The notes under the pieces are model-generated. The model saw only the letters and a program-made list of their open reading frames with translations. It did no database searches and was not told the origin of the DNA. DNA of 31,275 nt, taken from positions 1-31,275 of IMG/VR virus record IMGVR_UViG_3300046532_000672. One strand, 5' to 3'. Origin of the DNA: a virus. Both the position numbers and the translations under genes were made by a program. Positions 5,696 through 25,854 of this stretch are shown here, piece by piece. Positions within the stretch are counted from its first letter, which is position 1, and the number at the start of each line of letters is the position of its first letter.

Positions 5696-6901
5696 TCAAA
5701 CGGATCCGTAACCAGCACCAGCACCAGTGTAATCGATGAGGGTATTCCACTTCGCCATGTGCTGTTCAGCCTTCACCTGAAGGCCTTCCTCACACACGAT
5801 GTGCACCGAGTCGCTGTCGCCTGTCTTTGCGAGGGCCTCAACGATGAGGGGCTGGATCACCCGACGCTGGACGTTATCCTTCACGATGATGAAGGCGTCG
5901 CCCTTGTCAACCCAACGGTTCCGCACGATCTGTGTCTCACCGAACTCGTGGAACACAGAGGTAACAGGTACGCGGCCACGGCGCGGATCGTCAATGACGG
6001 TACGCACACGGCTGGAATCCGAGATGGCATTCAAGTCGGTCAACGAGGAGGGGTTAGCCATGAGAAGATCAGGCACCCCACCTATGTTGTACGTTGTCTG
6101 CATCAAGGTTTCCAGTGAACCAATGGTCAACGCATTATCAGTTGACACATTGGAAGTGATGAATGACGACAAACTACCACTTGACCTACGCTTGGTAGAG
6201 GTGTCGTCACGCTTCTGGCCGTACAGGTAAGCCTGCTCACGCATGATGACGTTCTCAACGGTCCTGCCGTACAACTGCTTGGCAAACTCGTCAGTCACGC
6301 CATACCGGCTGATCTGCTGCTCTGTCCGCGTCATGTCAACCTTGGTCGGGCCGAAAATCTGCGTGTTACCGCTACGGATTGTGCGGTCAGCCGAACGGGA
6401 CGGACCCGCATCGGAACCCTCAACCAAGGCGCTACCGACACAGATAACAGTGTCAGCGTTTGCTCCATGAGCAGTAGCCAACTGTCCAGCATGGTTAACC
6501 CACTCACCGACAGTTAGAACGCCGGTTGTGTTGTTAACGTTACTGACCAGAAGGACAGTACCCGTTGCAGCAGCACTTCGATCCAAAGTAGTTACAAGAT
6601 CGTTCTCCTGAAACTTGTATGAATCGGCTGCTGCTACTGTGATAGTGGTATGTGCTACACCCAGTGCTGCGTTCCCCGCCGAAATGTTCGCGCGTGGCAG
6701 CAGCAACTGCTCGTCCATCCACTTCCATGATGTCTGATCCACACTGGAACTGCCGAGCAACTGTCGCCCGTCTGTTCCGATGCCATTCAGAAATGGTGAA
6801 TCAATGGGCGAGATCATAAAGATCGCCTCGTCCATACTGATCTTTACTCCGACCGCTAGGTCATATGATGTGACCCGCCCCGGAAATCCTACGATAGCCA
6901 T
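5696..6901 (-). CDS. Major capsid protein, SU10/DUF5309 type (HK97 fold)
   Basis: This 401-aa protein forms the shell of the head. The core matches the SU10-type major capsid family: TQIFGPTKVDMTRTEQQISRYG and DEFAKQLYGRTVENVIMREQ (about 178-225), then GGVPDLLMANP, TSVFHEFGETQIVRNRW and AFIIVKDNVQRRVIQPL, ending with LQVKAEQHMAKW. The N-terminus has the expected start (GFPGRVTSYDLA, SPIDSPFLNGIG). Residues about 80-150 form a Thr/Val/Ala-rich beta insertion (TTITVAAADSYKF, TGVLTVGEW), which may protrude from the capsomer. The gene has a good ribosome binding site (AGGAG, 6-base spacing) and lies just after scaffold and zinc-ribbon genes and before a hairpin, as expected for a highly expressed capsid gene. 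Confidence 0.93.
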   Translation of the reverse strand: MAIVGFPGRVTSYDLAVGVKISMDEAIFMISPIDSPFLNGIGTDGRQLLGSSSVDQTSWKWMDEQLLLPRANISAGNAALGVAHTTITVAAADSYKFQENDLVTTLDRSAAATGTVLLVSNVNNTTGVLTVGEWVNHAGQLATAHGANADTVICVGSALVEGSDAGPSRSADRTIRSGNTQIFGPTKVDMTRTEQQISRYGVTDEFAKQLYGRTVENVIMREQAYLYGQKRDDTSTKRRSSGSLSSFITSNVSTDNALTIGSLETLMQTTYNIGGVPDLLMANPSSLTDLNAISDSSRVRTVIDDPRRGRVPVTSVFHEFGETQIVRNRWVDKGDAFIIVKDNVQRRVIQPLIVEALAKTGDSDSVHIVCEEGLQVKAEQHMAKWNTLIDYTGAGAGYGSV

Positions 6902-8572: not shown

Positions 8573-9925
8573 TTAGGCATTAGCCGCCCCGAATCCTGTT
8601 TGTGTACCAACAACCATAGCACTACCGCCACCTCTAAACTCTGCGCTACGTTCTGCTGCCCGTCGATCAAGAGTTTGACTAAGATCCGCGTCCATATCAA
8701 ACGCTGCCTTGACACCCTCATCGTCCATGCCGAGGTCTACCTTCTCATTTAGTTTCTCTTCAAATAGCATTTCACTCTCTTTCATCTCAGCAAACCTACT
8801 CCACTGCTGCGCCTGCGACAGACCTAGATCGGAAACTTTCTTGGCAAGATCCTTATCCCAACCCTGATCCAGACCAGCAACCATCTGGCCCCAAGCACCC
8901 GTCCGGGCAGTACTGATATCGTCCTTCACATTAGCCCACTCATCCAAGGGATCAAGGAATGTCTCCATTGAAATAGTTGTACCCGCCTCACCGAAGTAAT
9001 GATCGAACGTATCGCGCACCTCCTGCGGCATGTTATACATGACCTGCTCCGCCGCATTCAATCGCTCAGTCACCTCATCTCCACTAACACTATTTACAAA
9101 GAGACTAGTAATCAGGGTATCGAAAGCCGCCCCCTCTTTCTTCATCCCTACCCGCTTGAGTTCCTGAGAAACATGCTTCTCCATAGCGATGTATTCACCG
9201 GGGGTAGGTATATCCCGGTCACCCTGAGCCATCTGTGATATCCCCGGAAACCTCTTAACGAATGCTTCACTGTCGTACATGCCGATGAGTAGACGCTCCG
9301 CTGACATCGACGGATCATTCTGCATCTGAGCCTCAGCCCACAGCCACAGCGAATTAATAGTTTCCCGATCCAAACCTGCTCCACGCAGAGCACCGAAGAA
9401 TGCCTGCTGCATTTTCAGCCGGGTACTCGCACCGTCATCTTCGTCATCTTCAGCGTCAGCAACCCTTAGGCCCTGTGCAGTGACACCAAGGTTGGATTGG
9501 TGGAGGTTGCCCTGCTGTATCCAACGGGCAGCAATGTCTCCGCCTGCACCCATACGCTCTGTGCCAGAGTACTCACCATCTATCAGAGTCTCCGATGTGG
9601 ATGCAGCCTTTGTCGCTTCCCCGAAACTGGTTCCTGCAAACACACCACCCGTTTGAAACGGGTCGCTACCAACCCGGTACGCGAGGATGTCGGCACGGAT
9701 CTGTTCAGCCACATTCCAGCCAGCCTCGTCACCCTGAGCATCTTCAATCGCACTACGCCAACGAGTGACATCAGCACCCGTGATCGCCTCACCTTCCATA
9801 GTCCCCGACTGCACATCTGTCATAGACGCACGATCAAGCGTCTGATTCAACAACTGCAACGGAGACATAGCATCCGATATGTCACCCAGATGCTTCTGGA
9901 CTAGTGCCTGAATGGACTCACTCAC
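8573..9925 (-). CDS. Helical structural protein, probable internal virion protein, 450 aa
   Basis: No enzymatic motif is seen. The protein is acidic and mostly helical. A central block (about residues 178-265) reads FFGALRGAGLDRETINSLWLWAEA, then ERLLIGMYDSEAFVKRFPGI, then IPTPGEYIAMEKHVSQELKRVG. The 'L...F..RFPG......P..EY...E......L...G' arrangement is a repeat I recognise from large structural proteins of several phages, without an accepted name. The end is Gly/Ala-rich (AEFRGGGSAM, GFGAANA). The start is GTG, overlapping the preceding stop (GTGA). It is the last of five linked large genes and probably a minor virion or ejection component. Confidence 0.65.
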   Translation of the reverse strand: MSESIQALVQKHLGDISDAMSPLQLLNQTLDRASMTDVQSGTMEGEAITGADVTRWRSAIEDAQGDEAGWNVAEQIRADILAYRVGSDPFQTGGVFAGTSFGEATKAASTSETLIDGEYSGTERMGAGGDIAARWIQQGNLHQSNLGVTAQGLRVADAEDDEDDGASTRLKMQQAFFGALRGAGLDRETINSLWLWAEAQMQNDPSMSAERLLIGMYDSEAFVKRFPGISQMAQGDRDIPTPGEYIAMEKHVSQELKRVGMKKEGAAFDTLITSLFVNSVSGDEVTERLNAAEQVMYNMPQEVRDTFDHYFGEAGTTISMETFLDPLDEWANVKDDISTARTGAWGQMVAGLDQGWDKDLAKKVSDLGLSQAQQWSRFAEMKESEMLFEEKLNEKVDLGMDDEGVKAAFDMDADLSQTLDRRAAERSAEFRGGGSAMVVGTQTGFGAANA

Positions 9926-11505
9926 CTGTAGTCACTCCTAAACATCGAAGCCGCACCCGCAATAAACTGATTCATTGGGTTCTGGTAAGACTTACCCTCC
10001 GAGAACCTATCCATATTCTGACGCGCAGCAGCCTTCATTTCTGTCTGCGTCCTGAATCGTTTACGTCCGAGTTCGGGATCTTCTATCTGATAATTATCCA
10101 TCAACCACGGATCATTCTTACGGTAACTAGTATCACCCCAGATGCTAGTAGCACCTGCATACAAGTCCCCAATCAAGTTAGTGATGGTACCGCTACCCTC
10201 TGCACCAGCCTGACCCATACTGTCAATCTCTTCAGGCGTCAACCCCCACTGCTGGTGTGCTTTGGTAGCAATGTTTGTCATCACCTGACCCTCGTTGTCA
10301 CCTTGCTCCGATTTGATATCCAACGCCCAATCCCGAACCGTAGTATTATTTAATGCAGCCATCTGATCCAGATCAATCATCTGCATATCAGCATAGGAAC
10401 GAAGTCGCTTCTCTATATCCGTGACTTCGCCAGCACCTAGCGGCTGTACAAACCCACCGCTCCGTATGCTCTGTATCAGAATGTTTTCAGTCATCTGTCT
10501 AGCCTGATTAGGCCAGCCTTCAGCAGTCTGAGGTTCCAGATGGGCTGCCGCACCGCCCTCTGACATCAACGTGAAAGCAATCTGACTGACCATGGTATCA
10601 GTCAACTCATCTTCGATACCTAGATCATCAGCGGTAGACCTGATGATCTCAATGGAGTCTGACCAAATCTTACCCCAGTTGCCTACACCACCATAGGTAG
10701 TCTGACCTACACCTTCATCACCGGGATGGAGAATACCCGATCCATCGGCACCACCCGGACCACCCTGCGTGTACCACATCTCCGTCATCGCTAAGAAGTT
10801 GTTGGTCTTATCCGTCCACCAGTCCTGAGAATACAAACCATCTGTAGAGTCATTGTAGAAATCATCTATCAGCAAATGCTCAGCATACGGAGAAGTAGAT
10901 TCATTGTTGCTGTTGAACCGCTCCACCCACATATCCAACCAGTCCTTAATGACCGGCTCGTTCGTACTGCCCGTGTAATCATCCCCCCAGAACGTCAACC
11001 ATCCCTCCGGTAGCGTCCCGCTATTGGGCTTGTAGCCCTCAGGCGAGGCTTCAAAGTAAGATTCAGCCGACGCATATATGCCTGCGGTGGCATCCTTCGG
11101 GTCGGGCATCCCCGGAGCGCTACTACCCTGACCCATGAAATCTTCTACTGTTCCACCGGGCTGCCACCCTGCCGGGTTCTCCTCATCCGGGTCAAACCCA
11201 TTAACGAACTTGTCATACATCCTACGCAGTAAGGCATCCTGCTCATCGGCATCCATACCATGAGTGGTCACAGTATTAAACCAACCCTCACTCTGTGTGA
11301 TGGCCTCCTCAAAAGCAGGTGGAACAACAGAAGCGTCAATCGGATCAGGTGTGGCAACGATCTCGCCTAAATCCAGACTCGTAGAATTCTCCAATGTGTA
11401 ACCAGTAGTCGGATCAGCGATCTTCCCCGCCCACTCCATAAGGACAGCATCAGATAGATGGAGATACTCCGCTTTCAGGATCTCGTAAATATCTTCAACA
11501 CTCAT
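9922..11505 (-). CDS. Acidic helical structural protein, probable internal virion protein, 527 aa
   Basis: I recognise the style but not a named family. The N-terminal half is strongly acidic and Trp/Gly-rich (GWLTFWGDDYTGS, DFYNDSTDGLYSQDWW). The C-terminal half has a helical pattern: EIIRSTADDLGI, MVSQIAFTLMSEG, RLRSYADMQMIDLDQ, NIATKAHQQWGLTPEEID, then NDPWLMDN, FRTQTEMKAAARQNMDRF and FIAGAASMFRSDYR. This chain of modules, ending near 'R...EM..AAR....' and a Phe/Arg-rich tail, resembles the C-terminus of large helical virion proteins in other phages. ATGA and GTGA overlaps join it to both neighbours, so it is probably made in fixed ratio with them. A role in DNA ejection is inferred. Confidence 0.62.
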   Translation of the reverse strand: MSVEDIYEILKAEYLHLSDAVLMEWAGKIADPTTGYTLENSTSLDLGEIVATPDPIDASVVPPAFEEAITQSEGWFNTVTTHGMDADEQDALLRRMYDKFVNGFDPDEENPAGWQPGGTVEDFMGQGSSAPGMPDPKDATAGIYASAESYFEASPEGYKPNSGTLPEGWLTFWGDDYTGSTNEPVIKDWLDMWVERFNSNNESTSPYAEHLLIDDFYNDSTDGLYSQDWWTDKTNNFLAMTEMWYTQGGPGGADGSGILHPGDEGVGQTTYGGVGNWGKIWSDSIEIIRSTADDLGIEDELTDTMVSQIAFTLMSEGGAAAHLEPQTAEGWPNQARQMTENILIQSIRSGGFVQPLGAGEVTDIEKRLRSYADMQMIDLDQMAALNNTTVRDWALDIKSEQGDNEGQVMTNIATKAHQQWGLTPEEIDSMGQAGAEGSGTITNLIGDLYAGATSIWGDTSYRKNDPWLMDNYQIEDPELGRKRFRTQTEMKAAARQNMDRFSEGKSYQNPMNQFIAGAASMFRSDYR

Positions 11506-14500
11506 TTAGCACCCCCGAAGTACCCGGATGTAGCCATCTTCTGAAGATGCTCACGGGTCCACTCTTCACCCTCACGCGGCTTAAGGCTACTATCCGACGG
11601 CTTACGCCAGTAGTTGCCATCGACCACCACGCCATACCTGCCCGCCGCTCCCACGGCACGCTTGTAATCCTCATCGCTGCGGTACCCGACGACCATCGCG
11701 TCACCGTTCTCAATCTCCTTACGTTGATCGTTGGAGAATATCTGATGACCGTTATAGCCATTCTGGGAAAGATCCCTGCTGACACCCTTCAACAATTCTG
11801 GGTCTTCCCGCCCGACAAGAGGCACGGCCCCTTCACGCATCTGGGTAGCCAAGCCGTGTGCCTGCTCACGGAACCCGTCACCCAAACCGTCTAGTACCTG
11901 ATTGTTAGTGCTACGACTTGTCTTCTCCAACGCATCCATCGTGGCCGCAGTAGCCTTAGCCGCCCATTCCAGATGATCCGGGTAGTCCTCTATCCACGAC
12001 CACCAGCCGTCATTGTTCTTAGCCTGCCAAGCAAGCATGGACTCCACCGGTTGTGCTGCCGGGGCTGTACCCGTGAGGGATTCCTCAAAGGTAGTTTCCC
12101 GTGAGAGCAGTGGTGACAGGAAGTCTGTCGCATTCAGCGCACCCAAGCCACCCACACCATAGGCGGTACCGGTGATGCCCTTGCCGAACTGGTTGGGCCA
12201 TGACCAATCGTCGGGATCCCTCTTCGTCATAGGTGAGAACTCGTTTGCCCACGCCTGATGCTCAGGGAGCGCCAAGAACTTTGACTGCTCTCGCTCAGCC
12301 AGCATCCTGCTGTAGTCATCCATGTTCGTGACACCGAGCAGTTCGTTTGCTTCATCGGGTGCGAGGAACCCTTCGTCCCTTGCTCGCATGTCGTTAGGCG
12401 TAACCCCGGTGTACTCGTGAACCTCAATCCCGTCGTAATCTGCTATTTCACCCTTGGTCCAGTCATCGGCACCTCCCAATGAACCTTCATTCATCATCAT
12501 GTATTGATCTATTTGGTCACCGACATCTTTCAACTCCGCAGTCCCATACCGGAACAGAGGATCTTCAGCCCCCGGACCATCGGTAAACCGTGACTTCCTG
12601 AACCAGTTCTTGCCCATGCCGTACTGGCCTAGCCCATCGAACGGAACCCACATATGGGCACCACCACCACCACCACTAGCGATAGCCGCCTCATCGCCAG
12701 ACACATTGCCCCCACCACTGCGCTTATAGAACGGCTGCATAGTTCCATTTTGTAGTTCAACTACAACTATGTCGCGCGTATTCCCATCTTGGCTTTTGAG
12801 GCGCAGGATGTCAGAGATACGGATCTCACCCGGTTCTCCGAGGTGGCCGAGTTCGGTGATGATGTGCTTCGGACGGAAAGCACCTCCCTCACCAGCAAAC
12901 GACGTTATAGCATCCTTTACCTCCGGTACCGCCTTCTCCACCGTGGACTCGAAGGCCGCCCAGTCAGCCTCCATACCCGCAACGGGGGCAACCGACCCAT
13001 CCGGTGCCGTGTGGCCGTACCCTGTGGCAGCCCTATCTGCCCTAAACTTCTGATAAGCGGAGTCGGCCACAATCCTTTCTACATTCCGCATCTCGTGCAG
13101 GTTATGACCTCGGGCCTCCGGATTACGACCCGGCACACTTTGCCAGAACGGGGAGCGCATCTCACCTATATCCCACTCTTCCATCTCTCGGAGATAATAG
13201 AAGTGGGCGATATCGTCATCAGAGTATTGATTGATCTTACCCAACGCATAGAAATTGCCAGCCCATTCTTCTTCACCACCGAATGGAAGATCCTGCGCAC
13301 TGCGCATATCCCCACGCAACGCAGCCTCACGGAACCGTGCCGGAGGATCAATCTTTATACCGAAGGCTTCCATATAGCCTGCACGAGAATAAGCCCCCAC
13401 CCGACCGGGCCGCGACATCCGGGCGGTCGGACCTGTCACCTCATCACCAGCCTCGCTGACTATCGAACCCCGTGCCAATGGACCAGTCCCGTCCGTGTAG
13501 ACCGTGAAACCTGCGTTCCGGTACATATCGACAAGAGATCCTCGGCTTGACTCAACCGTCGCTCTGAGAATCACACCGTTGTCGGCCAGATAAGTCACTA
13601 CTCTTTTCAGTTCACGTAAGGCATCCCGCGCTATCCCCACACGGGCCATACCCTCCGGCCCTACCTCTTCGGCTACGTTATCCCACGTAATATAAATCTC
13701 CCCCGGTCCCTCTTTCTTCAGATTGAACTGAGCATCGCCTATCCTCATTGAAACCGACTGATCGCCGTGGTTCCAAATATCCATTTCTGTGATTGGATCC
13801 CAGTGATCTAAAACACTATCTTCACGGGCCATACCATCTGGGAACTTCCACGGACCCCAATTACCGTGACCCGGTTCCCCCGGTCGTAGCCCCTCATCCG
13901 GAAGCACCTGAAGCCCCTCTTCATCAGGTGGATCCATTCTTCGCTCGCGTGCATACCAATGCTCATCAGAGCGGGCGGGTGGACTGTCACGGAGTTCGCT
14001 GATGTTCCTGCGTAGTTCCCGAGCAGAACCGGACTGGCCCGGAGGCACAGATGGAGGATAGTAGCCGGGTGGGTGGGCCGCCCGCATAGCCTCAGTGGGG
14101 CGAGGTACGCCCCCAACGTGGGTGATGTCAAGCCAGTCAAGTGCATCTTCGGACAAGTCGAATGGACTCAGATCATCCGGGATCTCCCTCCAAGACAGCG
14201 CACTCTCAGGCCACAACCGCCTCGGCAGCCACCTCAAATCATCACGCGAAAGATGATCGAGATCACGCCGGACTGATGGAGTACCCGGACCGGGGCGGTC
14301 CATGCCAGTCAACGGAGTGCGACGCCACGGTGGATCCGGATAATCTATTCCGGGCGTGGTGCCCGCTATGCCTTCATCGGGTCTGGTGCCCGCCATGGGA
14401 TTCCCAGCCCAATCAGTTGCCGCCACAGGAGTAACTGATTCGTCGGGTCTGATGGGGTACACCGATGCGAGCCGTTCGCGGCCAAGGCCATCCATGCGGC

Positions 14501-15710
14501 CCTCAAACCAAGCAAGGTACTCAGGTGTATAAAGTTCACGAAGTATTTGTTCGTATTTTTCGTGAAGATTAGCCAGATCCGGGCCGGTTCCCCCCGACAT
14601 CATCGCCTCAGACATCTCTTGATCTCGTTCGTTACGCAACAACTTTATTGATTCAAGATCATCGGGAGGAGTCAGAGCCATCAACCGCTCACCTTCCGCT
14701 CCGTCCCAGTCCGCTGCGGCCTCACCACGCGGCCCCGACAATGTTCGTTCTCCACCTTCGCCACCACCCGGTAGCGCCTCAAGACTAGGTGGATCACCCG
14801 CTACTTCAGCGACACGCTGATCTCTAGCCGCCGTTTCTGCGAGGGCATCCGACCGCCGGATATCCTTCAACTTCGGATCAAAGATTTCAGATAGTTGCCT
14901 GAACTTAACCAACAACTCCGGTGGCAACATATCCAGATTCTTAGCCATCATCTGGAATAGCCGACCGCCACCTGCTCTCATCAGAGCGCGACCAGTCGGG
15001 CCGAACATGGCGCCAACAGTTGCTTCCAACGCCCACTCAAGAGGAGTATTCGGTATCAGTTTGGAGTTCTCATAATTGACGCCGTACCCATGCGGGTACG
15101 ACTCAGCAGGACTCTCATACTCATACGGCAGCCCACTTCCCGGCCCGCCATAGGTCCGGTTATACTCAGCCCATTCGGTTTGCGACTCATGCGTCTGAAC
15201 ACCAGCACGACGTGGGTCGCCTCCCATCTCGTAAACCTCTTCAGCAGTGGGTGACGTATCGCGGCCCTGCCTATGCATCATCGTATTATTCGGACGGTAA
15301 GCACTACCTGTATACGGGTCATCGCTCAATGGATTCCCGCTAAAGAACTCCGGTGCCTGCGGTGCCTGTTCCTTACCGCCACGCATCACCGTATAGGTAG
15401 GGATGTCCCATGCGTAAGCAAGTTCTTCTTGAGTGACACCCAACTGGTTGGTCAACAGGCTGACAGTCGCTTCCCGAGTAAGACCAAACTGTGCAAGAAA
15501 CTCGTTAGCCTTAGCATCCAGTTGCGCCGATTCCTCAGGTGCCCGTACCCCGTCATGGGAACGGATGCGGCCACCTAGCCCCATCGATTTTCCATCCGTC
15601 AATTCGACACCGGCTTGCACGGCAGAGAGGTGCGCCGTCCTCAGCAACTCCAGATAGAACGCATCATTGAAGTACCCTCCGAGTGCTACGTTGCCAGTAG
15701 TGCGGGTCAT
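11502..15710 (-). CDS. Large multidomain virion protein with GNAT-like domain, 1402 aa
   Basis: This is probably an internal or ejected virion protein. Residues 1-110 are helical. About 115-215 and 300-640 are Pro/Gly/Asp/Arg-rich and look disordered. Residues about 650-740 resemble a GNAT acyltransferase: a beta region (SVSMRIGDAQF, GEIYITWD), a helix-start VGIARDALRELKRVVTYL in place of the usual acyl-CoA loop, and ATVESSRGSLVDMYRNAGF, the typical end of that fold. Residues about 960-1060 form a second compact domain: RDIVVVELQNGTMQPFYKRSG, a Gly run, WVPFDG, NWFRKSRF and PLFRYG. The C-terminus (about 1200-1402) is helical. ATGA overlaps link it to both neighbours. A multidomain ejected protein with an enzyme-like module is the simplest reading; catalytic activity is unproven, and the GNAT loop looks degenerate. 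Confidence 0.68.
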   Translation of the reverse strand: MTRTTGNVALGGYFNDAFYLELLRTAHLSAVQAGVELTDGKSMGLGGRIRSHDGVRAPEESAQLDAKANEFLAQFGLTREATVSLLTNQLGVTQEELAYAWDIPTYTVMRGGKEQAPQAPEFFSGNPLSDDPYTGSAYRPNNTMMHRQGRDTSPTAEEVYEMGGDPRRAGVQTHESQTEWAEYNRTYGGPGSGLPYEYESPAESYPHGYGVNYENSKLIPNTPLEWALEATVGAMFGPTGRALMRAGGGRLFQMMAKNLDMLPPELLVKFRQLSEIFDPKLKDIRRSDALAETAARDQRVAEVAGDPPSLEALPGGGEGGERTLSGPRGEAAADWDGAEGERLMALTPPDDLESIKLLRNERDQEMSEAMMSGGTGPDLANLHEKYEQILRELYTPEYLAWFEGRMDGLGRERLASVYPIRPDESVTPVAATDWAGNPMAGTRPDEGIAGTTPGIDYPDPPWRRTPLTGMDRPGPGTPSVRRDLDHLSRDDLRWLPRRLWPESALSWREIPDDLSPFDLSEDALDWLDITHVGGVPRPTEAMRAAHPPGYYPPSVPPGQSGSARELRRNISELRDSPPARSDEHWYARERRMDPPDEEGLQVLPDEGLRPGEPGHGNWGPWKFPDGMAREDSVLDHWDPITEMDIWNHGDQSVSMRIGDAQFNLKKEGPGEIYITWDNVAEEVGPEGMARVGIARDALRELKRVVTYLADNGVILRATVESSRGSLVDMYRNAGFTVYTDGTGPLARGSIVSEAGDEVTGPTARMSRPGRVGAYSRAGYMEAFGIKIDPPARFREAALRGDMRSAQDLPFGGEEEWAGNFYALGKINQYSDDDIAHFYYLREMEEWDIGEMRSPFWQSVPGRNPEARGHNLHEMRNVERIVADSAYQKFRADRAATGYGHTAPDGSVAPVAGMEADWAAFESTVEKAVPEVKDAITSFAGEGGAFRPKHIITELGHLGEPGEIRISDILRLKSQDGNTRDIVVVELQNGTMQPFYKRSGGGNVSGDEAAIASGGGGGAHMWVPFDGLGQYGMGKNWFRKSRFTDGPGAEDPLFRYGTAELKDVGDQIDQYMMMNEGSLGGADDWTKGEIADYDGIEVHEYTGVTPNDMRARDEGFLAPDEANELLGVTNMDDYSRMLAEREQSKFLALPEHQAWANEFSPMTKRDPDDWSWPNQFGKGITGTAYGVGGLGALNATDFLSPLLSRETTFEESLTGTAPAAQPVESMLAWQAKNNDGWWSWIEDYPDHLEWAAKATAATMDALEKTSRSTNNQVLDGLGDGFREQAHGLATQMREGAVPLVGREDPELLKGVSRDLSQNGYNGHQIFSNDQRKEIENGDAMVVGYRSDEDYKRAVGAAGRYGVVVDGNYWRKPSDSSLKPREGEEWTREHLQKMATSGYFGGAK

Positions 15711-17848
15711 ACGTTTCTCACCTTCAACGTGTTCAAACTCTTCCTACGGCTATTCACCGAATCCATCAGGCGTCGGAAGTCGGGGCCACCATTACCAACA
15801 AGGTCCATTGACTGTGCCAGTCGATCATCCAGAGTGGTAGCCAACGGTGCCTCTGCTGGGGTGCCCTTAGCCATCTGCATAGCCTTGTTCACCATGCGAC
15901 CATAGTCCTCGTTGCTGTACCCCCGCTCGGAAGCGGTACGCTGACCAATGGTGTGAGCGTAAGTAATCATTCCCTTACGAAGAGCGTTAGCATCATCCCA
16001 GCCACCATTATCCGTAATAAACTTTACAAGATTGGCAGTAACTACATCCTGTTCAGCGTGCTGTAGCGCCCCGACATCATTCGGATCCCAGTTCTCTCTA
16101 TAGTTCTCAGGCCGCAACTTCCCTCTGTCCAACAAAGAGATTTCATTCTCGTTCAATGCCCCCGCCCTTTGGGCGTACCTCATAAAGTCATCGTCAGTGT
16201 TTCGGCTACCAAAGAATATCTGTGAACCCCAATCGCTATCCCCGTAGAAGTCGGACATCAATAGATCCACCATCTGCTGCTGGTCCGCAGAACCACCCCG
16301 CCCGAAATACTTCTCTCGTTGCTCTGTACCCAACTCTCCCATCATCCCTTCGATGGTGGCTTCCAACTCTTTGATACCTTGATTGTTGATTGAGCGATTA
16401 GGATTACCAGTGATTCTTTCCTGAATCCTTCGTGATACCTCTTTTATCACATCCTCTTGCTGCTTGAAAGACTGATTGTTTTGAAGTTCACCAGTGCTGA
16501 CATTCCGGCTAATGAGCCGCCGCATCACTGTCGCTATATAGGGAGTAGCATCAGAATGGAGTTCGCCTTCCGGTACCTGCAACGCCTCATTAACGATGTC
16601 TGCTTGGAACATCTGCAACGCATCAACAGTACGATCAGCCATACCCGCCATACCGGGGATGTCTAGTCTGCCCCACTCAAAACCTTCACCGCCTTCCAGT
16701 ATCCCCCATGCAAACAACTCCTGTTGGATCTGATCCATGACGGGGGAGTAACCTGTGGAATCTTTAGTGTTGTCATACAAGGTACGCATGTAGTTGTAGG
16801 CATCCATTGGGCCAAGTCTGCCGCCGGAGAACAGATCGTTAACTGATTTAATATCCCCATAGGGTGTGCCATCAAACGACGTTATCCACCCAACCTGCCC
16901 TCCCTCTTCGCCGTCGGGGTCAGGACCGATCATCATCGATGGGTCGCCCTTGCTGAGTTCTGCTGCATACGTTGTGATGGCAGCCTGTAACGCCCCACCG
17001 AGGATGTCCTGTGCTGACCCACCACCAAACGCATCATCAACATTTGCTAGTATCGTGGTGCCGTCGCCGTACCCACCGAACTGTCGCATCAGTTCACCGA
17101 ACACAGCAGGATCCGCTTCGGCAGTCTCTAAAGTATTCGGCTTCTTGCCATCGACAATACCGGACATAAATGTTGACCAGTTCTCAGCAACATTCTGTTG
17201 AACCAACTTAAGTAGATCGGGCGTGTCGCGCCAGTTGCCATTCAGGTATGCAACCAATTTGTCCTGACCTACGGTACTGGAAAGATTGTAAACGTTGGCG
17301 GTAGGTTTGGATGTCTCACCTTGGAACGCAGGACTAACCCCGCCGTCTGGCTCATAGATAACTGACCTGCCGATACCAGCGCCCTCACGAGAAGCCAGCG
17401 TGACACCGCTTTTCCTTAGCCAGTTAATAAACTTAACGAACGATTCCTCACCAGTCATCTGCTCAAAGTGCAAAGCCCTAATAGCATTAGTACCAGCAGC
17501 AGGCCCCTGATCGGTGCCCGTTCCTGCGGGCATTATCCCCTCTGCTACCTGACCCTGCAAGCCTTCTGCCGTCACGTCCTCTGGCTCAGGTGGAGCGAAC
17601 GTGCCTTCCTGCTTAACAAAGTCCTTAAGGGTTCTTGCTATCTCCCTGCTTTGTGCTGCATACGGAAGACGCCACCAGCCTTCAGCGGTCTCAACCGCTT
17701 CGCGTGCGCCTGTAAATACTTCATCTATGGCGAGACCAACGTCGTCAAAGAACGTACCAACTTCAGGCGGGACAAGTGGATCTCGCTCGTCTTCAGTGAG
17801 GGTACCGATTACCTCGTCTTCGGGCTGCTCTACAAAGAGATCAGTCAT
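15707..17848 (-). CDS. Large helical structural protein, probable internal virion protein, 713 aa
   Basis: I do not recognise a named family. The N-terminus is acidic and Pro-rich, with a predicted helix at VGLAIDEVFTGAREAVETAEGW-like sequence (about 37-58). Residues 130-175 (EESFVKFINWLRKSGVTL) form a helical block. The middle is Asp/Gly-rich. The C-terminal third is charged and helical (EDVIKEVSRRIQERITG, IKELEATIEGMMGEL), then DDFMRYAQRAGALNENEISLLDRG, ending in a basic tail (NSRRKSLNTLKVRNV). There is no signal peptide, membrane segment or catalytic motif. It sits between the 2669-aa and 1402-aa genes with ATGA overlaps at both ends. Its setting points to a virion protein, probably of the ejection group. 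Confidence 0.6.
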   Translation of the reverse strand: MTDLFVEQPEDEVIGTLTEDERDPLVPPEVGTFFDDVGLAIDEVFTGAREAVETAEGWWRLPYAAQSREIARTLKDFVKQEGTFAPPEPEDVTAEGLQGQVAEGIMPAGTGTDQGPAAGTNAIRALHFEQMTGEESFVKFINWLRKSGVTLASREGAGIGRSVIYEPDGGVSPAFQGETSKPTANVYNLSSTVGQDKLVAYLNGNWRDTPDLLKLVQQNVAENWSTFMSGIVDGKKPNTLETAEADPAVFGELMRQFGGYGDGTTILANVDDAFGGGSAQDILGGALQAAITTYAAELSKGDPSMMIGPDPDGEEGGQVGWITSFDGTPYGDIKSVNDLFSGGRLGPMDAYNYMRTLYDNTKDSTGYSPVMDQIQQELFAWGILEGGEGFEWGRLDIPGMAGMADRTVDALQMFQADIVNEALQVPEGELHSDATPYIATVMRRLISRNVSTGELQNNQSFKQQEDVIKEVSRRIQERITGNPNRSINNQGIKELEATIEGMMGELGTEQREKYFGRGGSADQQQMVDLLMSDFYGDSDWGSQIFFGSRNTDDDFMRYAQRAGALNENEISLLDRGKLRPENYRENWDPNDVGALQHAEQDVVTANLVKFITDNGGWDDANALRKGMITYAHTIGQRTASERGYSNEDYGRMVNKAMQMAKGTPAEAPLATTLDDRLAQSMDLVGNGGPDFRRLMDSVNSRRKSLNTLKVRNV

Positions 17849-20800
17849 ATCGCACTCATATCGATATTAACCAGCCCAGCCTGATGCTTCGCAATCCAAC
17901 TCTCCCCGATGATAGGTAGGAACACACTGTAATATAGTTCATTCAACCAAGGCTTGTTATGAACAAACTCTTCCATGATCCGCTTATACTGGAACCGGAG
18001 AGCATCACGTTTCGCTCGTGCACTAGGATCAGACTGACCCTTCAAGCCATCCATCTTGTCGGAGAACCCGACAATGGTAGCCATCGCATCCAAGATGTCT
18101 TCTCGGTGCAGCCCCTCAGGTACCAGTTCCGGTGATTCGACAAGCAACCTGAACTCGTTGACAGTTGAATCTCGCTTAATGCGGGCAGTACCAGTAGTGA
18201 TCTGATTCACGAATACGGGGTGCTGCATCTGGAACGCCGCGTACCATAGATCCCATTTGCTATCCAACTGCGTGGTATCCATGTTCATGGCACGCATCGA
18301 ATTCTTTCGTGTCATATAGGTGATACGACGCTTGCTGTAAACAGGATAAGAGATATTGAAATACAACTCAGATAGAAACTCTTCCGACGTATCCATCTTG
18401 CGTAGACCCATATTCAACTGACGCTGCTTAGTCTCCGCTACGTATTCGTCATCATCTACATCAAACTTGCGAGGCATGAAGAACGCCGACGACATCGTGA
18501 AGTCACGGGCAAATGCGTCGTTATCCACCAGCCAGCGGTTAGCGTCCTGTGTAGTCTCCAGCACAGCGAACGGAACCTTCGTATAGCCGGAAGTCCTGAA
18601 CGGTGAATGCTCTACCGGATCGAACTTCTCCCCAGTACGAGCCTCCACGTTCTTCACCCACTGCGGGTACGCCTCCTCATAGGGAAGCCCCATCTCCAAC
18701 AACTCATGGAACTCTTGGTTCCATTCCCAATTCTCATGGAGGGTAAGGTCAGCCAGTGCCCCGGTAGATGGACCCCAGAACCATGATAGAGCCTGCAACA
18801 ACTGGTACTGGCGGGCCATTTCATCTACATCCTCTAGGAACCATTCCTCATACAGCGCCGGATTGGAATGCGACGCGATCTCCTGCTCCGTAGGAATAGA
18901 ACCATTCATTGCCATGAACTTAAGTACATCAATCTTTGCCTTGGCACGAGCCTCACCGTTCGGACCATCGATACCCAATACAGCAATCGCCCTGACGACC
19001 AGTGCCGGAGCGACCGACGACCATGCCGCCTCAAAGACATTAGATACGGTTCCGCCTGCACCTGTATTTAGTTTGCTGGCTCCGGGGTAGCGGCCACCGA
19101 CAAGGTTATGTTCAAACATCTTTCGGATCTCAGCGTCACGACCCGAAGCGAAGTTGATTGGAGCAGCGAGCAGCGGACCCAACCCCAACTGACCCATTGA
19201 GTCCAGATCGTAACCGGGGATGACATGGATGTTCATTGCGATGCCCATACCGGGGCGCTGTACGGCACCGAGGTTGCCACCGAAGACGCTATTGACGATG
19301 GGTGTCTTGTCGGCTATCGACAGCATGTAATGGGTAGCGATTTCACTACCGGGAATAACGATCTGCTTCTCTCCGAACTGATCCTCCTGAACGATGCCGC
19401 TGTATACCCCAGCATTCATTGTTAGATGAAGGTTGCGGAACATCAACGGGTTGTGCTTCAGGCTGCGTCCGACACGACGCAAGAAGTTATCTTCAGCAAA
19501 CCAGAACGGTACGACCGTACCAACCATTGCCTGAAACTGTGAGCGGATACGGTGATCATCGATGTAAGCGCTGGTCAGGGTCATAGCCCGACGGGCGGCT
19601 ATGTCACGGTGTGCATCAGCCATCATCTTACGGTGCAGCATGTAGCCGAAGAACTCGTCCTGCAACCGTACGTGTTCGTCAAGAACCTCCGCTACTGTCT
19701 GGGTTCTCACCGCTCCGTACCAGCCCTGACGGTCCCCTTTCTTTACAGTCCTCAGTATGGTTTCGATTTGCTTCTCATTCAGTTCACCCATGAGGCGAGC
19801 GACCCGCTCCAATACCTGCGATACATCAGCAGGTACGTCACCTTCTTTGATAATCTGATGTATCGCATCGATGGTAGCGAGCGGGCTTTTTGTTTCGATA
19901 CCGGCAGCCAACAAGGAGGCCGCAGCCTCCGGGTCGGCCTTAGCCAACGGCCAATCGAACTCAATGAATCCGTCTAGTTCATCGATAATGAACTGGTCAG
20001 CCTCATCGATATACCCCAAAGTTCTACCACTGGCCTCGTGAAGCCTGTAGTTGTACGGCTTCTCCACCCATTTCACGTCACCCGTCCTTCGCCCCGGCTC
20101 GGGAAAGAACTCACGCACTTCCAACTTGGACCGATGATAGATGCGTCGAACACCAACCGTCTGCTCCGTACCCAGAGCCAGATAATGCTGGAACAACGGT
20201 TCACGAACCATCCCACCAATCATGGGATTGACCACGCCATCGAACCAGTTGCGTAGAATCGTTGTCCACGCCTTACTTATCTTCTCTCCGACCTTCCCAC
20301 CTTCTTCAGTAACCGGCATGAACGCGAGGATATTGTCAGGAGCGTTGTTCCACCATCTTGCTCTACTGGCATAGGCACCAACCCGTATTGCGCTTACTTC
20401 GTGTGGTTCAAGGACTTCACGAAGCCACGGATGGAAGATTTCTACGTTGTCCTGCCTACTACCCGTACTAAGCAGATCGTTCAATTCAAAGGAGTTGAGG
20501 TAGGCTAGTTCCTCAGCCATGTTGTGGAGATCGTTACCTGTTGTGATCTGTTCTTCTACCAATTCGTAGTCAAGGAACCAATCATCGGTAGGTTCCGTAC
20601 CGTGCCTCAGCACAATAAACTCACCGGTTGTTGGACTCCTGTAGTAGCGAGTTAGATGGGTAACTGGTTCACCATCCAACATGGGTACTGGTGTCAAGCC
20701 ACCGGGACGTGGGGCGATCAGATGTTGGGCGGCGATCCCGATCACGTTCTCATCGCGTAGACCGCGTGGACCAAAGTCGCGTGCTGTTGTTGCACCTTCT

Positions 20801-23800
20801 TTACCCCACCCGTAATAGGAGTTCATAAACTCGCCACCCAAAGCAGTAGCCATACTCTCATGTGCGGTATGTGACCCGACCGCATTCCTGACGGTGGTGA
20901 TGTCAAGTTCGGCTGGCCTGCTGCCTGCTGACAGACCGGGTGCGTTCCACATTTCCTCACTACTGACATCCATCGTACCAATGCGTCCGCTACCTACACG
21001 GTGGGCTGGCATCCCAACGGAACCGAACCGAGCCGGTACCCGTCTGGATAAGACATCTTCCAAAACCTGCGATACGATATGGGCTACCTTGGGGTTGGCG
21101 CTACCAACTACCATCGGGAAGAAGCCCTCTCCAACCTCTTCCCACAGGTTTGCAGTAGCAACCATAGAACTAGCGGTCAAGCCCGTATTGCCCGGTCCCA
21201 GTGATGGCGATAGCAGGCGTGCCGCATTCAACGCTTCCTTCTCGCTTAAACCAATCTCTCGCATTCTGACTGTGAGAAGGTCTACGACCTCATCGAACCA
21301 GCCCTGATGACGCCGCCCACCTGAAAGCATTTGAACCAATGCTTCCCTGTATTCCAAACGAATCATCGGGACAAACAGACGGGTAGCGCCGGGTGGCAGT
21401 ATCTCGCTGGACTTACCACCCAAGGCAGCGAACCCAGCATTCGACCGGTGCACCGTCCTGAGAATCTGCTGACCCGCAGGGGTCATCACCTGATTGAAGT
21501 AGGCCAACCGTGCACGTCGGACGACCTCATCCCAATCGTCTGCCAAGCGAGTGACATCTGATTGACCGAGGAGATAGCCAACGATGTTGACATCGGCACC
21601 AACCTTCTGTCCACCAACCTCCGGGTCCAATATGGTGCGCCATATATCCTGCTGGTTTTCAGGCATCGCTTCGATGAAGTCATCAACAGCGTCCGGCCAT
21701 CCGGCTTCAAATGGCAGGTCACCGGCAACCAAGTTGCCCGCCTCATCGAAGGATGAACCGGGTCCAACACGGTCGAACGACTGCCGCAGTTTGTCCAATG
21801 CCTCCGGGTTCTCCCGTGCAAGGTGTAGAACGATCTGCTCTGGCGACTGGTCTGTCAGCAGTGCCCTCACACGACGGATCTCATCGGGGCTACCAGAAGA
21901 CAGCGCAGCGAGGGCTAGTCCCTCAGCAGTAGCGGTAAGGTCTTGTCTAACCCGTGGCGAAACGTAGTTGATTATTTCTTGTAGATAGGCACGAGCGAAT
22001 ATGTCGTCGGAGTGCATGGACAACCGCTGTGATACCGCCTGAGCCTTACGAACAAGACCCATTTCGCTACCCGGCTCATTGGATACATACGCCAGTTCTG
22101 TATTCTGGTAATCAACTGTGAACTTCAGCAGCCGGTCTACAGAAGTGACACTGTTCCCCCGCCGGAGTGCCTCATCCATAGTGTTCTTGCTGTAGTTGAG
22201 GTAGTTGTCGAAGGTTCCTAGAACCTCCCTCATCTGGGCGTCCAGCAACGTGGGGATAGTCAAAGAGGATGCAACGGCAGACACCCGCTCCTCGTGGTTC
22301 TTCGCCACCTTAGTAAGCAGCCGGTTAGCGAGTCCCTGTCGGGTAGGCATACCCGGTATGCGACCGAAGGTATCTCGTGCGAGAAGCGTGAGTTCGTTGG
22401 CCTTCGCATTAGAGAACTCAAACAACTGCTTGGAAGTTCTCCCCAATACGGTGCGGCCTGTCCGCAGTTTCACCGCTTCATGGGTATCCTCAAACAACTT
22501 GAATGCGAGGTCCGGGCTGTCCTCCAGCAAGGACGCCCATCTATCCTTGTTCTTTTCGACAACCTCCAAGAGCGACTTCCGGAATATGGCGAAGTCTCCG
22601 ACTCCAGCAATCTCATTAAACGACCGCCAGATTGAAGCGACCGGCTTCCACAGCAGCCCCACCCGCTCTTCGTCGGGTAGTTTCGATCCCTTGACCAGCG
22701 TCTTCCTGCCGTATGCATCCCACATAGGATGGAAATCGGCTGCTGTCTTGGCTAGTTTCTGCTTTGCGTAATGTGACGGGCCTTCACGCACCATCCATGT
22801 GAACAACTCTTCGCCACCGTTACGGACCACATACCCCATGCGTAGCAGAACAGCGGGACGCCATGTCCTAGCGAGAAGATTATCGACGGCAGGTAGATGC
22901 ATCCCCCAGCCAAGCCTCCGGTAGAATGCCATGTACTTGGCTACGGCTCCTAGTTCCCGGTAGTTGGGTATGACATTGGCTCGTGCCAACTGTGCTGAGT
23001 ATTCCTGACCGGGCATAATGGCCTTGCGAACATTCAGACCTGAGATTCCAACCATGTCATCAGTGATGTTGCCGTACCTGTGTGCACCCTGTCGGATAAA
23101 CTTTTCAACGAACTTCTGGACATCTCGTCCGCCGTGCATTAACACACCGGACCTACCAAGGAAATCCAAATAGAATTCTGTGGTCACCAGCCATTTCTCA
23201 GAATCGTTACCCATCGTATAGGCACGTAGGTAGTTGTCGATCTGGGTGCGTGGCATATCCACCATGATTCCCATATCGACTAGCCCTTGGAACTCAGCAA
23301 TCGCCACGTTGCCGCTACTCACATCGATATGGGCTGCCTTAGGAACGTAAGTAGTTAGTTTCTCTGCAAACTTGGCCGGGTAGTAGGCCAATGCACGCAT
23401 TGTCGCCCCACTGATTATGCCGCCGCGATGCCACCAGTCAAGTTCAGCGTTAGCCCCGCCTGCTCTGTGGATCTGGCCTTCCAGATAGTTCTGACGGGCA
23501 CGACGCGCCCCCTGAAATGGCAGGGCCGTTAGATCCTGAACGGGTACCCCGTCAATAATCTCTACACCTTTGCCCTGATGATACATGAGTAGGGCATCCA
23601 TCTCCCCACTAGCCATAACGTGTGCTATGGCTTCTGGTTCCAACTCAAGGAGAGCCTCATCGATCTTCGCCATGTCTGTTTCACCCAAGCCGTGCCGACG
23701 CGCGTTACCGATGGACGCATCATCCATTACCGATTGAAGACCTATGGGGTCTACCTCATTACTGAGAGTAAGCAGCCCGTCGTCAATCCGTTTAAGAAGA

Positions 23801-25854
23801 GCAGCATGGAGGTAGTTGCCCTGTTCCACTAGCCACGTTGCAGCGCCGCGTGCAAGGTCATCAACAACATCTGATTCCAGATGATGGAAACTAAGTATGT
23901 CGTTCTTGATGTACTTCTTACCGTCAGCCCACTTCTCTCCGAACTTGCTCATCCGTGGTAGGAAGATCGCGTCCGGGTCAACTCCTCCCACCTTGGAGGC
24001 CAGCATCTCCCAACCCGTCTGAGACTGGAGGAAGTCCCAGAAGCCCTGCTCATTGGCTAATGTCGGGAATGTCCTAGTCTGGAAATCAATGTGTTCGACA
24101 AAGTTTCCATCCTTGTCATAACTAGCAAGCCTCGTTCCCTCATTGGTGAATGCAACATCGCCATCCACCATTGGGTTACTAGGGTCACCCTTGATGCGGG
24201 CCTCACCCAGCAACTTGCCTTCGCTATCGTGGACCTTCCACATGCCAGTCTCATCGATGTGCCGTGCATCCACGGTCAGGCTCATCCTGCGCCTCATCAG
24301 ATGCCAGTTCCACATATCACCGATGATTGGAGCCATCGCAGGCACGTCACGCATCAACTGACCTAGACCAGTTTCATTACCGAACTCTATCTTGATAGCA
24401 TTAGCGACATTCTCGTCAGGGTTCGCAGCCCTGAACGCACGAGAGAACTCATCTATTTCATCCTGCTTCTTGAACGCATCGTTAACCCGGTCGATCAACC
24501 GGTTGATTGCCCTGTGCTGTGAACGAAGCATCGGGTTCGTCTGGGCCAGATACTCGGCACCGCTTCTGATTAGCCGCTTGCCACGCCCAATCGGGATGTT
24601 GCCCTGAGTGAGCGCACCAGTGCTTCCAACTCCACCCCCTGCGACCCATTCCTTGACTTCGCTGAGCGCATCATCCCACGCCCCGGTAGTAGGATTCCAA
24701 ATCCTGATTGGTGCGAACAGGTCGGTATCTTTGGCTTCTGCACGGAGCGCCTTAGATAGCCGTTCAGAGAAGTGGACTGCATCCGAGGTCATTCCTGCAC
24801 GCATTCCGACCTTCGCGTGCTTGGCTATCTTGAAGAGAGCACCACCAGCCCACGTTGTCGGATCCAGCAAGATTTCGGTAGCAAGCGCACCGACCATGCC
24901 GACGGTCTTGCCCTGCCAACTATCAGGGGTAACATCCCACGGCGACACTACATTGAACGCACGTTGTGATGCATCAAAGAGAGTGAGTTTACCCGATTCA
25001 AGAATCTCTAGTGCCCTAACATTATTATCTTCAGCCAGCGACGACTGCCAGTTGCGCCAGTATTCGGCAGCCTTCTCTTCAGATAGGCCGTTCTTCTGCC
25101 CCTCCTTCAAGATCAGGTCGTATGCGCCCTGCTGCCCACCCTCAAGGTATGCCCGTAGCATCCGTGTCTGGTGACGGCCAACGATACGTTCAGCCTGCTT
25201 AACGGTCCCCGAGTAATAGGAGTTCTCTTCTAGTTTCGTTTCATTCCACGACTCCCGCCAATCACGGGGATCAGCAAAGGAACCCAGCCCCTTCTCACCG
25301 AGATAGGCACCCCACCGACCGGTGCGTGTAGCGAACCGGGACGGCTTCATCACCCCCCACTCCCATGCAGTACTGGCAGCCTTACCTGCAAACCACCCCA
25401 TCGTACGCACCGGAGCCATGCCGATACCTATGGCCTGACCCATATGCTCTTCAGGTAGTAGCGGAATGTCCCACGTCAACATCCGTCTAATCAATGACTT
25501 CTGTTCCTCATTCGGTGGTTCGTACCCACCACTGAGGAGAATCTGCTGAGTCGGTTCCGCCAACCGACCGAACTCAGCCTTCTGTATCTGATCCGGCATT
25601 GCCTCAAAGGTGTGCCGCATCTGATTGAACTCGGTCTGGTTGTATGCACGCAGGAAATCGTCCAGCATATCGCTGTCCGACTTTGGACTCTGCGCTAGAG
25701 CCATAATCGATTCAGGTGCAGTATCTAGGAACCGACCAGCCCCCGCTTTCATAAGCAACTGCATCCTACGACCGTGCCACTCATCGTTGAGTGACGATAG
25801 TGGTGCGGTACTAACTGTACTTGTTGCCAGCCTAAGCCCGGAGCGTTCAGCCAT
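17845..25854 (-). CDS. Giant virion/ejection-type protein, 2669 aa
   Basis: At 8010 bases this is a quarter of the window. The protein is mostly helical. Near residues 316-345 a hydrophobic stretch (VGMVGALATEILLDPTTWAG) could be membrane-active. Near 993-1021, RTWRPAVLLRMGYVVRNGGEE matches a 'WRP.VL.R..Y..RN' block recurrent in very large phage structural proteins. Near 2111-2165, VPFWFAEDNFLRRVGRSLKHN and MNAGVYSGIV form another such block, followed by Gly-rich and aromatic segments to the C-terminus (ELYYSVFLPIIGESWIAKHQ). I looked for the N4 virion RNA polymerase motifs and a lytic transglycosylase motif and found neither. Being next to the portal genes with no tail tube nearby, it is most likely an internal protein that enters the host with the DNA. 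A tape-measure role cannot be excluded. Confidence 0.7.
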   Translation of the reverse strand: MAERSGLRLATSTVSTAPLSSLNDEWHGRRMQLLMKAGAGRFLDTAPESIMALAQSPKSDSDMLDDFLRAYNQTEFNQMRHTFEAMPDQIQKAEFGRLAEPTQQILLSGGYEPPNEEQKSLIRRMLTWDIPLLPEEHMGQAIGIGMAPVRTMGWFAGKAASTAWEWGVMKPSRFATRTGRWGAYLGEKGLGSFADPRDWRESWNETKLEENSYYSGTVKQAERIVGRHQTRMLRAYLEGGQQGAYDLILKEGQKNGLSEEKAAEYWRNWQSSLAEDNNVRALEILESGKLTLFDASQRAFNVVSPWDVTPDSWQGKTVGMVGALATEILLDPTTWAGGALFKIAKHAKVGMRAGMTSDAVHFSERLSKALRAEAKDTDLFAPIRIWNPTTGAWDDALSEVKEWVAGGGVGSTGALTQGNIPIGRGKRLIRSGAEYLAQTNPMLRSQHRAINRLIDRVNDAFKKQDEIDEFSRAFRAANPDENVANAIKIEFGNETGLGQLMRDVPAMAPIIGDMWNWHLMRRRMSLTVDARHIDETGMWKVHDSEGKLLGEARIKGDPSNPMVDGDVAFTNEGTRLASYDKDGNFVEHIDFQTRTFPTLANEQGFWDFLQSQTGWEMLASKVGGVDPDAIFLPRMSKFGEKWADGKKYIKNDILSFHHLESDVVDDLARGAATWLVEQGNYLHAALLKRIDDGLLTLSNEVDPIGLQSVMDDASIGNARRHGLGETDMAKIDEALLELEPEAIAHVMASGEMDALLMYHQGKGVEIIDGVPVQDLTALPFQGARRARQNYLEGQIHRAGGANAELDWWHRGGIISGATMRALAYYPAKFAEKLTTYVPKAAHIDVSSGNVAIAEFQGLVDMGIMVDMPRTQIDNYLRAYTMGNDSEKWLVTTEFYLDFLGRSGVLMHGGRDVQKFVEKFIRQGAHRYGNITDDMVGISGLNVRKAIMPGQEYSAQLARANVIPNYRELGAVAKYMAFYRRLGWGMHLPAVDNLLARTWRPAVLLRMGYVVRNGGEELFTWMVREGPSHYAKQKLAKTAADFHPMWDAYGRKTLVKGSKLPDEERVGLLWKPVASIWRSFNEIAGVGDFAIFRKSLLEVVEKNKDRWASLLEDSPDLAFKLFEDTHEAVKLRTGRTVLGRTSKQLFEFSNAKANELTLLARDTFGRIPGMPTRQGLANRLLTKVAKNHEERVSAVASSLTIPTLLDAQMREVLGTFDNYLNYSKNTMDEALRRGNSVTSVDRLLKFTVDYQNTELAYVSNEPGSEMGLVRKAQAVSQRLSMHSDDIFARAYLQEIINYVSPRVRQDLTATAEGLALAALSSGSPDEIRRVRALLTDQSPEQIVLHLARENPEALDKLRQSFDRVGPGSSFDEAGNLVAGDLPFEAGWPDAVDDFIEAMPENQQDIWRTILDPEVGGQKVGADVNIVGYLLGQSDVTRLADDWDEVVRRARLAYFNQVMTPAGQQILRTVHRSNAGFAALGGKSSEILPPGATRLFVPMIRLEYREALVQMLSGGRRHQGWFDEVVDLLTVRMREIGLSEKEALNAARLLSPSLGPGNTGLTASSMVATANLWEEVGEGFFPMVVGSANPKVAHIVSQVLEDVLSRRVPARFGSVGMPAHRVGSGRIGTMDVSSEEMWNAPGLSAGSRPAELDITTVRNAVGSHTAHESMATALGGEFMNSYYGWGKEGATTARDFGPRGLRDENVIGIAAQHLIAPRPGGLTPVPMLDGEPVTHLTRYYRSPTTGEFIVLRHGTEPTDDWFLDYELVEEQITTGNDLHNMAEELAYLNSFELNDLLSTGSRQDNVEIFHPWLREVLEPHEVSAIRVGAYASRARWWNNAPDNILAFMPVTEEGGKVGEKISKAWTTILRNWFDGVVNPMIGGMVREPLFQHYLALGTEQTVGVRRIYHRSKLEVREFFPEPGRRTGDVKWVEKPYNYRLHEASGRTLGYIDEADQFIIDELDGFIEFDWPLAKADPEAAASLLAAGIETKSPLATIDAIHQIIKEGDVPADVSQVLERVARLMGELNEKQIETILRTVKKGDRQGWYGAVRTQTVAEVLDEHVRLQDEFFGYMLHRKMMADAHRDIAARRAMTLTSAYIDDHRIRSQFQAMVGTVVPFWFAEDNFLRRVGRSLKHNPLMFRNLHLTMNAGVYSGIVQEDQFGEKQIVIPGSEIATHYMLSIADKTPIVNSVFGGNLGAVQRPGMGIAMNIHVIPGYDLDSMGQLGLGPLLAAPINFASGRDAEIRKMFEHNLVGGRYPGASKLNTGAGGTVSNVFEAAWSSVAPALVVRAIAVLGIDGPNGEARAKAKIDVLKFMAMNGSIPTEQEIASHSNPALYEEWFLEDVDEMARQYQLLQALSWFWGPSTGALADLTLHENWEWNQEFHELLEMGLPYEEAYPQWVKNVEARTGEKFDPVEHSPFRTSGYTKVPFAVLETTQDANRWLVDNDAFARDFTMSSAFFMPRKFDVDDDEYVAETKQRQLNMGLRKMDTSEEFLSELYFNISYPVYSKRRITYMTRKNSMRAMNMDTTQLDSKWDLWYAAFQMQHPVFVNQITTGTARIKRDSTVNEFRLLVESPELVPEGLHREDILDAMATIVGFSDKMDGLKGQSDPSARAKRDALRFQYKRIMEEFVHNKPWLNELYYSVFLPIIGESWIAKHQAGLVNIDMSAI

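Follow-up and report, generated by a model that had tools for sequence, protein, structure and literature searches.

The DNA analysed here (the window), a virus record of 31,275 bases, encodes on its minus strand, in order, a terminase, a portal protein, proteins of 123, 2669, 713, 1402, 527 and 450 aa, small open reading frames (ORFs) and the major capsid protein, the central block running portal, giant protein, P0003, P0001, P0002, P0005 and capsid (Table 1). Our analysis concerns the 1402-aa protein, P0001. A preliminary description of this DNA had placed a GNAT acetyltransferase-like domain at 13491-13763, corresponding to about aa 650-740 of this protein. The ORF lies at 11502-15710 on the minus strand, and its translation bears out this correspondence; the extent given for the domain proved too narrow, and we place it at approximately aa 623-745.

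Table 1. Coordinates of the late-block genes, of the parts of P0001 and of related proteins from other contigs
Feature	Coordinates	Strand	Evidence or comparison
Terminase	28045-29757	minus	phrog_38, E 1.7e-48
Portal protein	26225..28048	minus	phrog_104, E 3.7e-11
Giant 2669-aa protein, late block	17845..25854	minus	83% identity with the G004 copy
713-aa protein (P0003), upstream neighbour, late block	15707..17848	minus	4-base overlap with the P0001 gene; 74% identity with G004
1402-aa modular protein P0001	11502..15710 (stop codon included)	minus	ORF and translation
P0001 conserved N-terminal region, aa 1-245	14976..15710	minus	about 26-68% identity to related proteins
P0001 variable Pro/Gly/Asp/Glu-rich linker, aa 283-622	13845..14864	minus	24% identity to G004 (global alignment)
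P0001 GNAT-like domain, aa 623-745	13476..13844	minus	profile, HMM ranks, AlphaFold topology, Foldseek/VIA; encloses 13491-13763 of the preliminary description
P0001 conserved region of unknown fold, aa 780-935	12906..13373	minus	56% identity to G004
P0001 second accessory domain, aa 936-1080 (FYKRSG...GGGGGAHMWVPFDG...WFRK...RYGT)	12471..12905	minus	66% identity to G004
P0001 conserved C-terminal domain, aa 1240-1402	11505..11993	minus	M15/VanY-like model; 82% identity with G004
527-aa protein (P0002), downstream neighbour, late block	9922..11505	minus	4-base overlap with P0001; 53% identity with G004
Major capsid protein, SU10 type	5696..6901	minus	PF17236, E 2e-47
HELAH-bearing P0001 orthologue, L121	113-2905		
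HELAH-bearing P0001 orthologue, L122	7604-10525		
HELAH-bearing P0001 orthologue, L123	6170-9289		
HELAH-bearing P0001 orthologue, L101	1872-5039	minus	
Same-slot SLT lysozyme protein, L105	10592-11629		weakly alignable C-terminus
Same-slot SLT lysozyme protein, L108	6436-7491		weakly alignable C-terminus
Same-slot SLT lysozyme protein, L109	6189-7244		weakly alignable C-terminus

By its portal and a 652-aa late (tail-region) protein (2749-4707), the nearest named relatives of this phage are Streptomyces phages of the Beephvirinae, at 21-29% identity. The terminase ranking is headed by two unannotated Caudovirales sp. records, followed by Streptomyces Beephvirinae phages at 25-28% identity. 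Members of the Beephvirinae are podoviruses. In addition to a 1644-aa protein, their portal-capsid block contains one protein each of the NlpC/P60 and SLT types, and this content indicates that the P0001 gene occupies the site at which such phages encode their large proteins, internal or tail-associated. In the Streptomyces phage WRightOn, the block gp10-gp14, located between portal and capsid, likewise opens with a single giant protein and continues with smaller ones, with weak similarity between P0004 and gp10 and between P0005 and gp14; unlike in the phage described here, the enzymes of this block are of the NlpC/P60 and SLT types, and no GNAT was found in WRightOn. The IMG/VR provenance of the relatives suggests that these phages are marine. 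Among genome contigs no terminase relative was found, and thus no host could be linked.

No part of P0001 matched Pfam or PHROG, its single NCBIfam match (E 0.19) is at chance level, and single-sequence searches with the whole protein and with the GNAT-like domain returned nothing from named phages, viral contigs, Pfam or PDB sequences. Its parts become apparent by comparison with record G004 (IMGVR 3300035204_000233), which carries an orthologue over aa 621-1401 (62% identity in the contig search, 57% in pairwise comparison) and does not share the linker of aa 283-622. The linker, of which 41% is Pro, Gly, Asp and Glu, retains a blastp match to G004 of only 26 aa. The long disordered flanks that had been described around the domain are present on the upstream side only; downstream, the sequence is conserved across aa 780-1205 (56-66% identity) and through the C-terminal domain.

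The preliminary description had proposed profile comparison, structure prediction and a fold search as checks on the GNAT assignment. For the first of these, seven GNATs of E. coli (SpeG, RimI, YiaC, YhhY, YpeA, MnaT and ElaA) were combined into a profile, which was aligned by hhalign with 137 pair-profile windows, covering five protein pairs from the window and G004. The highest-scoring three correspond to aa 603-841, with probabilities of 53-73% and P values from 3e-5 to 1.3e-4; a fourth (aa 722-881), which overlaps the end of the domain only, reached 18%, and the remaining ones did not exceed 2.6%. When the HMM of the same seven proteins was run against 7,929 tiles (up to 160 aa) of the collected phage loci, ranks 1 to 16 were all occupied by the GNAT-like region of the window or of G004, with individual E-values of 0.12-1.4. 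The resemblance therefore stands above chance level. Among curated families, none of the Pfam or NCBIfam GNAT models matched aa 623-745 within a limit of E = 10, no PHROG GNAT model did so either, and a canonical PF00583 match is absent from the window's own record. Profile and pattern searches for further copies recovered G004 only and none in bacterial genomes, leaving, among the contigs covered by these capped scans, two sequences that carry the domain.

Two AlphaFold models include the domain: that of the window sequence has a mean pLDDT of 59 and a pTM of 0.54, and that of the G004 sequence a mean pLDDT of 45. In both, the domain runs from helices through three strands into a 24-residue helix, after which come another strand and helix. 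This is the order seen in GNATs, and the window model adds two short strands. The beta-beta-beta-alpha-beta-alpha-beta succession of the GNAT core is thus present at modest confidence (pLDDT about 44-81 per 10-residue block). Foldseek searches of the PDB with the window model gave weak matches, the best of which (E 0.09) is an acetyltransferase. With the G004 model, about 48 of the 50 matches listed were GNATs, none with E below 0.001. In a viral structure library, phage acetyltransferases were among the best matches, at E 0.018 or worse. The best VIA-align match of the domain was AcrVA5, an anti-CRISPR acetyltransferase of GNAT fold (Z 5.7 and 6.8), and the other rows listed were mostly GNATs. 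AcrVA5 and the P0001 domain appear to share a GNAT-type fold carried by a mobile element, but all Z values are below 8, a level that common arrangements also reach, and AcrVA5 is tied with many other GNATs. AcrVA5 is moreover a small stand-alone protein, made after entry.

Z values of this size are no more than common arrangements can give, so we rest the assignment on the agreement of several lines of evidence and on no single score. These lines are not fully independent because the window and G004 sequences are homologous. It could be argued that the segment is some other alpha/beta domain that resembles GNATs by chance, as the lack of a family-level match, the low-confidence models and the high individual E-values would allow. 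We regard this as improbable, given that the sequence profile and two structure predictions concur and that the structural matches are mostly GNATs. Taken together, the profile and model evidence makes it probable that aa 623-745 adopt a GNAT fold.

The acyl-CoA loop, which had been noted to depart from the Q/R-x-x-G-x-G/A form, is degenerate in both known copies. It reads A-R-V-G-I-A in the window, where hhalign aligns it with Q-G-K-G-L-A of SpeG, and E-R-A-G-S-Q in G004. The Gly is retained in both, the first residue is lost in both, and the last is retained in the window only. As the loop consensus is absent, we refer to the domain as GNAT-like and do not file it as an acetyltransferase. 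In the last GNAT helix, a Tyr preceding GF is a common general acid. This Tyr is present in both copies within a MYR-x-AGF motif, and MYRNAGF of the window aligns with IYRKLGF of SpeG.

These features bear on whether the domain is an inactive remnant, which would have kept the fold, lost acyl-CoA binding and come to serve as a spacer or protein-binding module in the virion. The loop has decayed differently in the two copies, and the GNAT-like domain as a whole is 44% identical between them, compared with 56-82% for the other globular parts, as might be expected of a remnant. Against this, the helix-strand-helix core with its Tyr and AGF (aa 690-742) is 55% identical, and the differences at codon positions 1, 2 and 3 (0.28/0.28/0.53) indicate a constraint resembling that on the N-terminal region. 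This degree of conservation suggests that the domain has been maintained, either as an enzyme or as a binding domain, and we judge a remnant to be rather unlikely.

Terminase relatives were present in at least 176 viral contigs, and 38 of those records were searched with P0001. The contigs of the relatives are fragments, and P0001 orthologues occupy the same gene position in them. Besides G004, the search recovered an N-terminal piece in G002 (77% identity) and, in five other records, matches restricted to the N- and C-terminal parts (28-38% identity). The full sequences display constant ends (approximately aa 1-245 and 1240-1402) and a variable middle. In G004, this middle contains the GNAT domain and the second accessory domain. 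A further relative, L138 (5971-9798), found through the N-terminus, shares both ends (39% and 54% identity) and the second accessory domain (33-41%) and has no GNAT segment. As the FYKRTGTG...WFRK domain occurs there without its GNAT companion, the two accessory domains can be separated from each other. In L112, both ends are found (38% and 55%) with neither accessory domain, and the conserved region of aa 780-935 was detected in neither L138 nor L112. Between the same conserved ends, the centre of G012, L121, L122 and L123 bears a HELAH sequence, zincin-like by motif only, while G007, G009, G011, G013, L115, L117 and L120 have another centre, common to all seven. In G008, G018 and G020, the same slot is occupied by a protein that begins with an SLT lysozyme domain (the G008 copy matches PF18896 at E 2.4e-13). 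The C-terminus of these proteins escaped blastp detection and is weakly alignable to that of P0001, to which it is tentatively related by sequence.

The second accessory domain carries the signature FY[KR]R[ST]G...W.P..G[LI]G...WFRK...RYGT, common to P0001 and L138; it has no family in the databases searched, and fold prediction gave no confident model for it. The C-terminal domain is present in those relatives in which the 3' part is covered. Its model, built on the G004 sequence (pLDDT mostly 53-81 per block), matched M15/VanY-type or related peptidoglycan endopeptidases and endolysins in the 13 best VIA rows and in row 15, at Z 6.7-9.0, including VanY/VanX-type and endolysin M15 structures. 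In a 14-sequence alignment the domain has no conserved His, so that the His/Asp/His zinc ligands are missing, and no M15 support was found in sequence searches. We therefore rejected membership of the M15 family and retain a resemblance of fold only; the domain may be a dead peptidase fold serving as a virion or cell-wall module. Profile matches of this domain to designed solenoids and other unrelated chains were judged to be due to chance.

This resemblance raises the question of whether P0001 descends from a peptidoglycan hydrolase and is chiefly an ejection protein for crossing the cell wall, with central domains that act in the envelope or the ejection channel and not in the cytoplasm. Consistent with such an origin are the M15/VanY-like C-terminal model, the SLT domain in the same-slot proteins of G008, G018 and G020, and the peptidoglycan hydrolases of the equivalent Beephvirinae block. 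The lack of conserved zinc ligands and of M15 sequence support weakens the case, and a functioning GNAT must reach the cytoplasm, where acetyl-CoA is found. On this evidence we consider such a role unlikely.

Cargo domains of polyvalent proteins, which enter the host with the DNA, include GNAT, zincin-like peptidase and lysozyme domains (PMC5512222). As in the polyvalent GNATs (Iyer et al. 2017, PMC5512222), the GNAT-like domain of P0001 is one of several in a large protein whose gene stands among the virion (late) genes, here between those for the portal and the capsid. Several globular domains have been exchanged between relatives, as seen in G004, L138 and L112 and in the HELAH-bearing centres elsewhere, and other copies of the slot hold zincin-like or lysozyme domains, which are typical polyvalent cargo (PMC5512222). 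The two polyvalent GNAT families described belong to the RimI-like clade and in phages usually stand beside an ART domain (PMC5512222). Compared by description with these families, P0001 differs in having no recognised ART domain, a non-canonical P-loop, and constant ends enclosing an exchanged middle.

P0001 also resembles the podovirus ejection proteins of the T7 gp16 type, for which swapping of lysozyme domains is established (PMC8954989), in being a large, late protein of the head or ejection block with domain mosaicism and same-slot SLT lysozyme relatives. Unlike them, it has no match to PHROG ejection-protein families at E up to 1, and the window copy has no lysozyme. The gp16 proteins are not known to carry a GNAT-like domain.

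As its layout fits both polyvalent cargo and the lysozyme swapping of ejection proteins, we propose that P0001 is a packaged protein that accompanies the DNA into the cell. On balance we favour a modular virion-delivered protein of the ejection or polyvalent type, the middle of which would be swappable cargo and, in this phage, a GNAT-like putative effector. The reading of the domain as polyvalent-type cargo, already offered in the preliminary description, gains indirect support from the position of the gene between portal and capsid, from the exchanged middle with its zincin-like motif in some copies, and from the lysozyme version in the same slot; packaging, entry and the acylation of a target are the steps that we infer. 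The gene could also encode an assembly protein or one that is not packaged.

In the mechanism that we envisage, P0001 would be a protein of the late (head or ejection) block of a marine podovirus-like phage, with its conserved N- and C-terminal parts acting as a constant scaffold that encloses a region of exchangeable cargo. Here and in one relative, that cargo would comprise the GNAT-fold domain of aa 623-745 and the second conserved domain. P0001 would most likely be packaged and delivered together with the DNA, and in the opening minutes of infection its GNAT-like domain could then modify, presumably by acylation, or bind a protein of the host (or of the phage). If delivered with the genome, it would act ahead of phage gene expression, like T4 Alt.

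More broadly, and as a tentative suggestion that we hold with less confidence, marine podovirus-like phages may possess a dedicated delivery chassis, consisting of a constant-ended late protein with a cargo bay for interchangeable effectors (GNAT-like, zincin-like or as yet unnamed), with lysozyme in the slot of relatives; the effectors would act on the host within minutes, ahead of phage transcription. Should the termini indeed serve as a scaffold for packaging and delivery, comparing this slot across the many related marine contigs would list virion-delivered effectors of uncultured phages. Such effectors would be missed by family searches, as the absence of Pfam and PHROG matches throughout P0001 illustrates.

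Three other proteins of the window merit mention. The giant 2669-aa protein (17845-25854) is without a confident domain match in the window copy and is weakly similar to WRightOn gp10; its counterpart in G031 is a 4365-aa protein (L106, 1010-14107). A zinc ribbon of the Zn_ribbon_8/FmdB type occurs in a 115-aa protein (6919-7266, minus strand) whose gene adjoins that of the capsid protein. Lastly, the minus-strand gene at 939-1676 encodes an endolysin with a PG_binding_1 domain (E 8.6e-12) and a weak VanY match, and the genome that encodes P0001 may thus also encode a live M15-type hydrolase.
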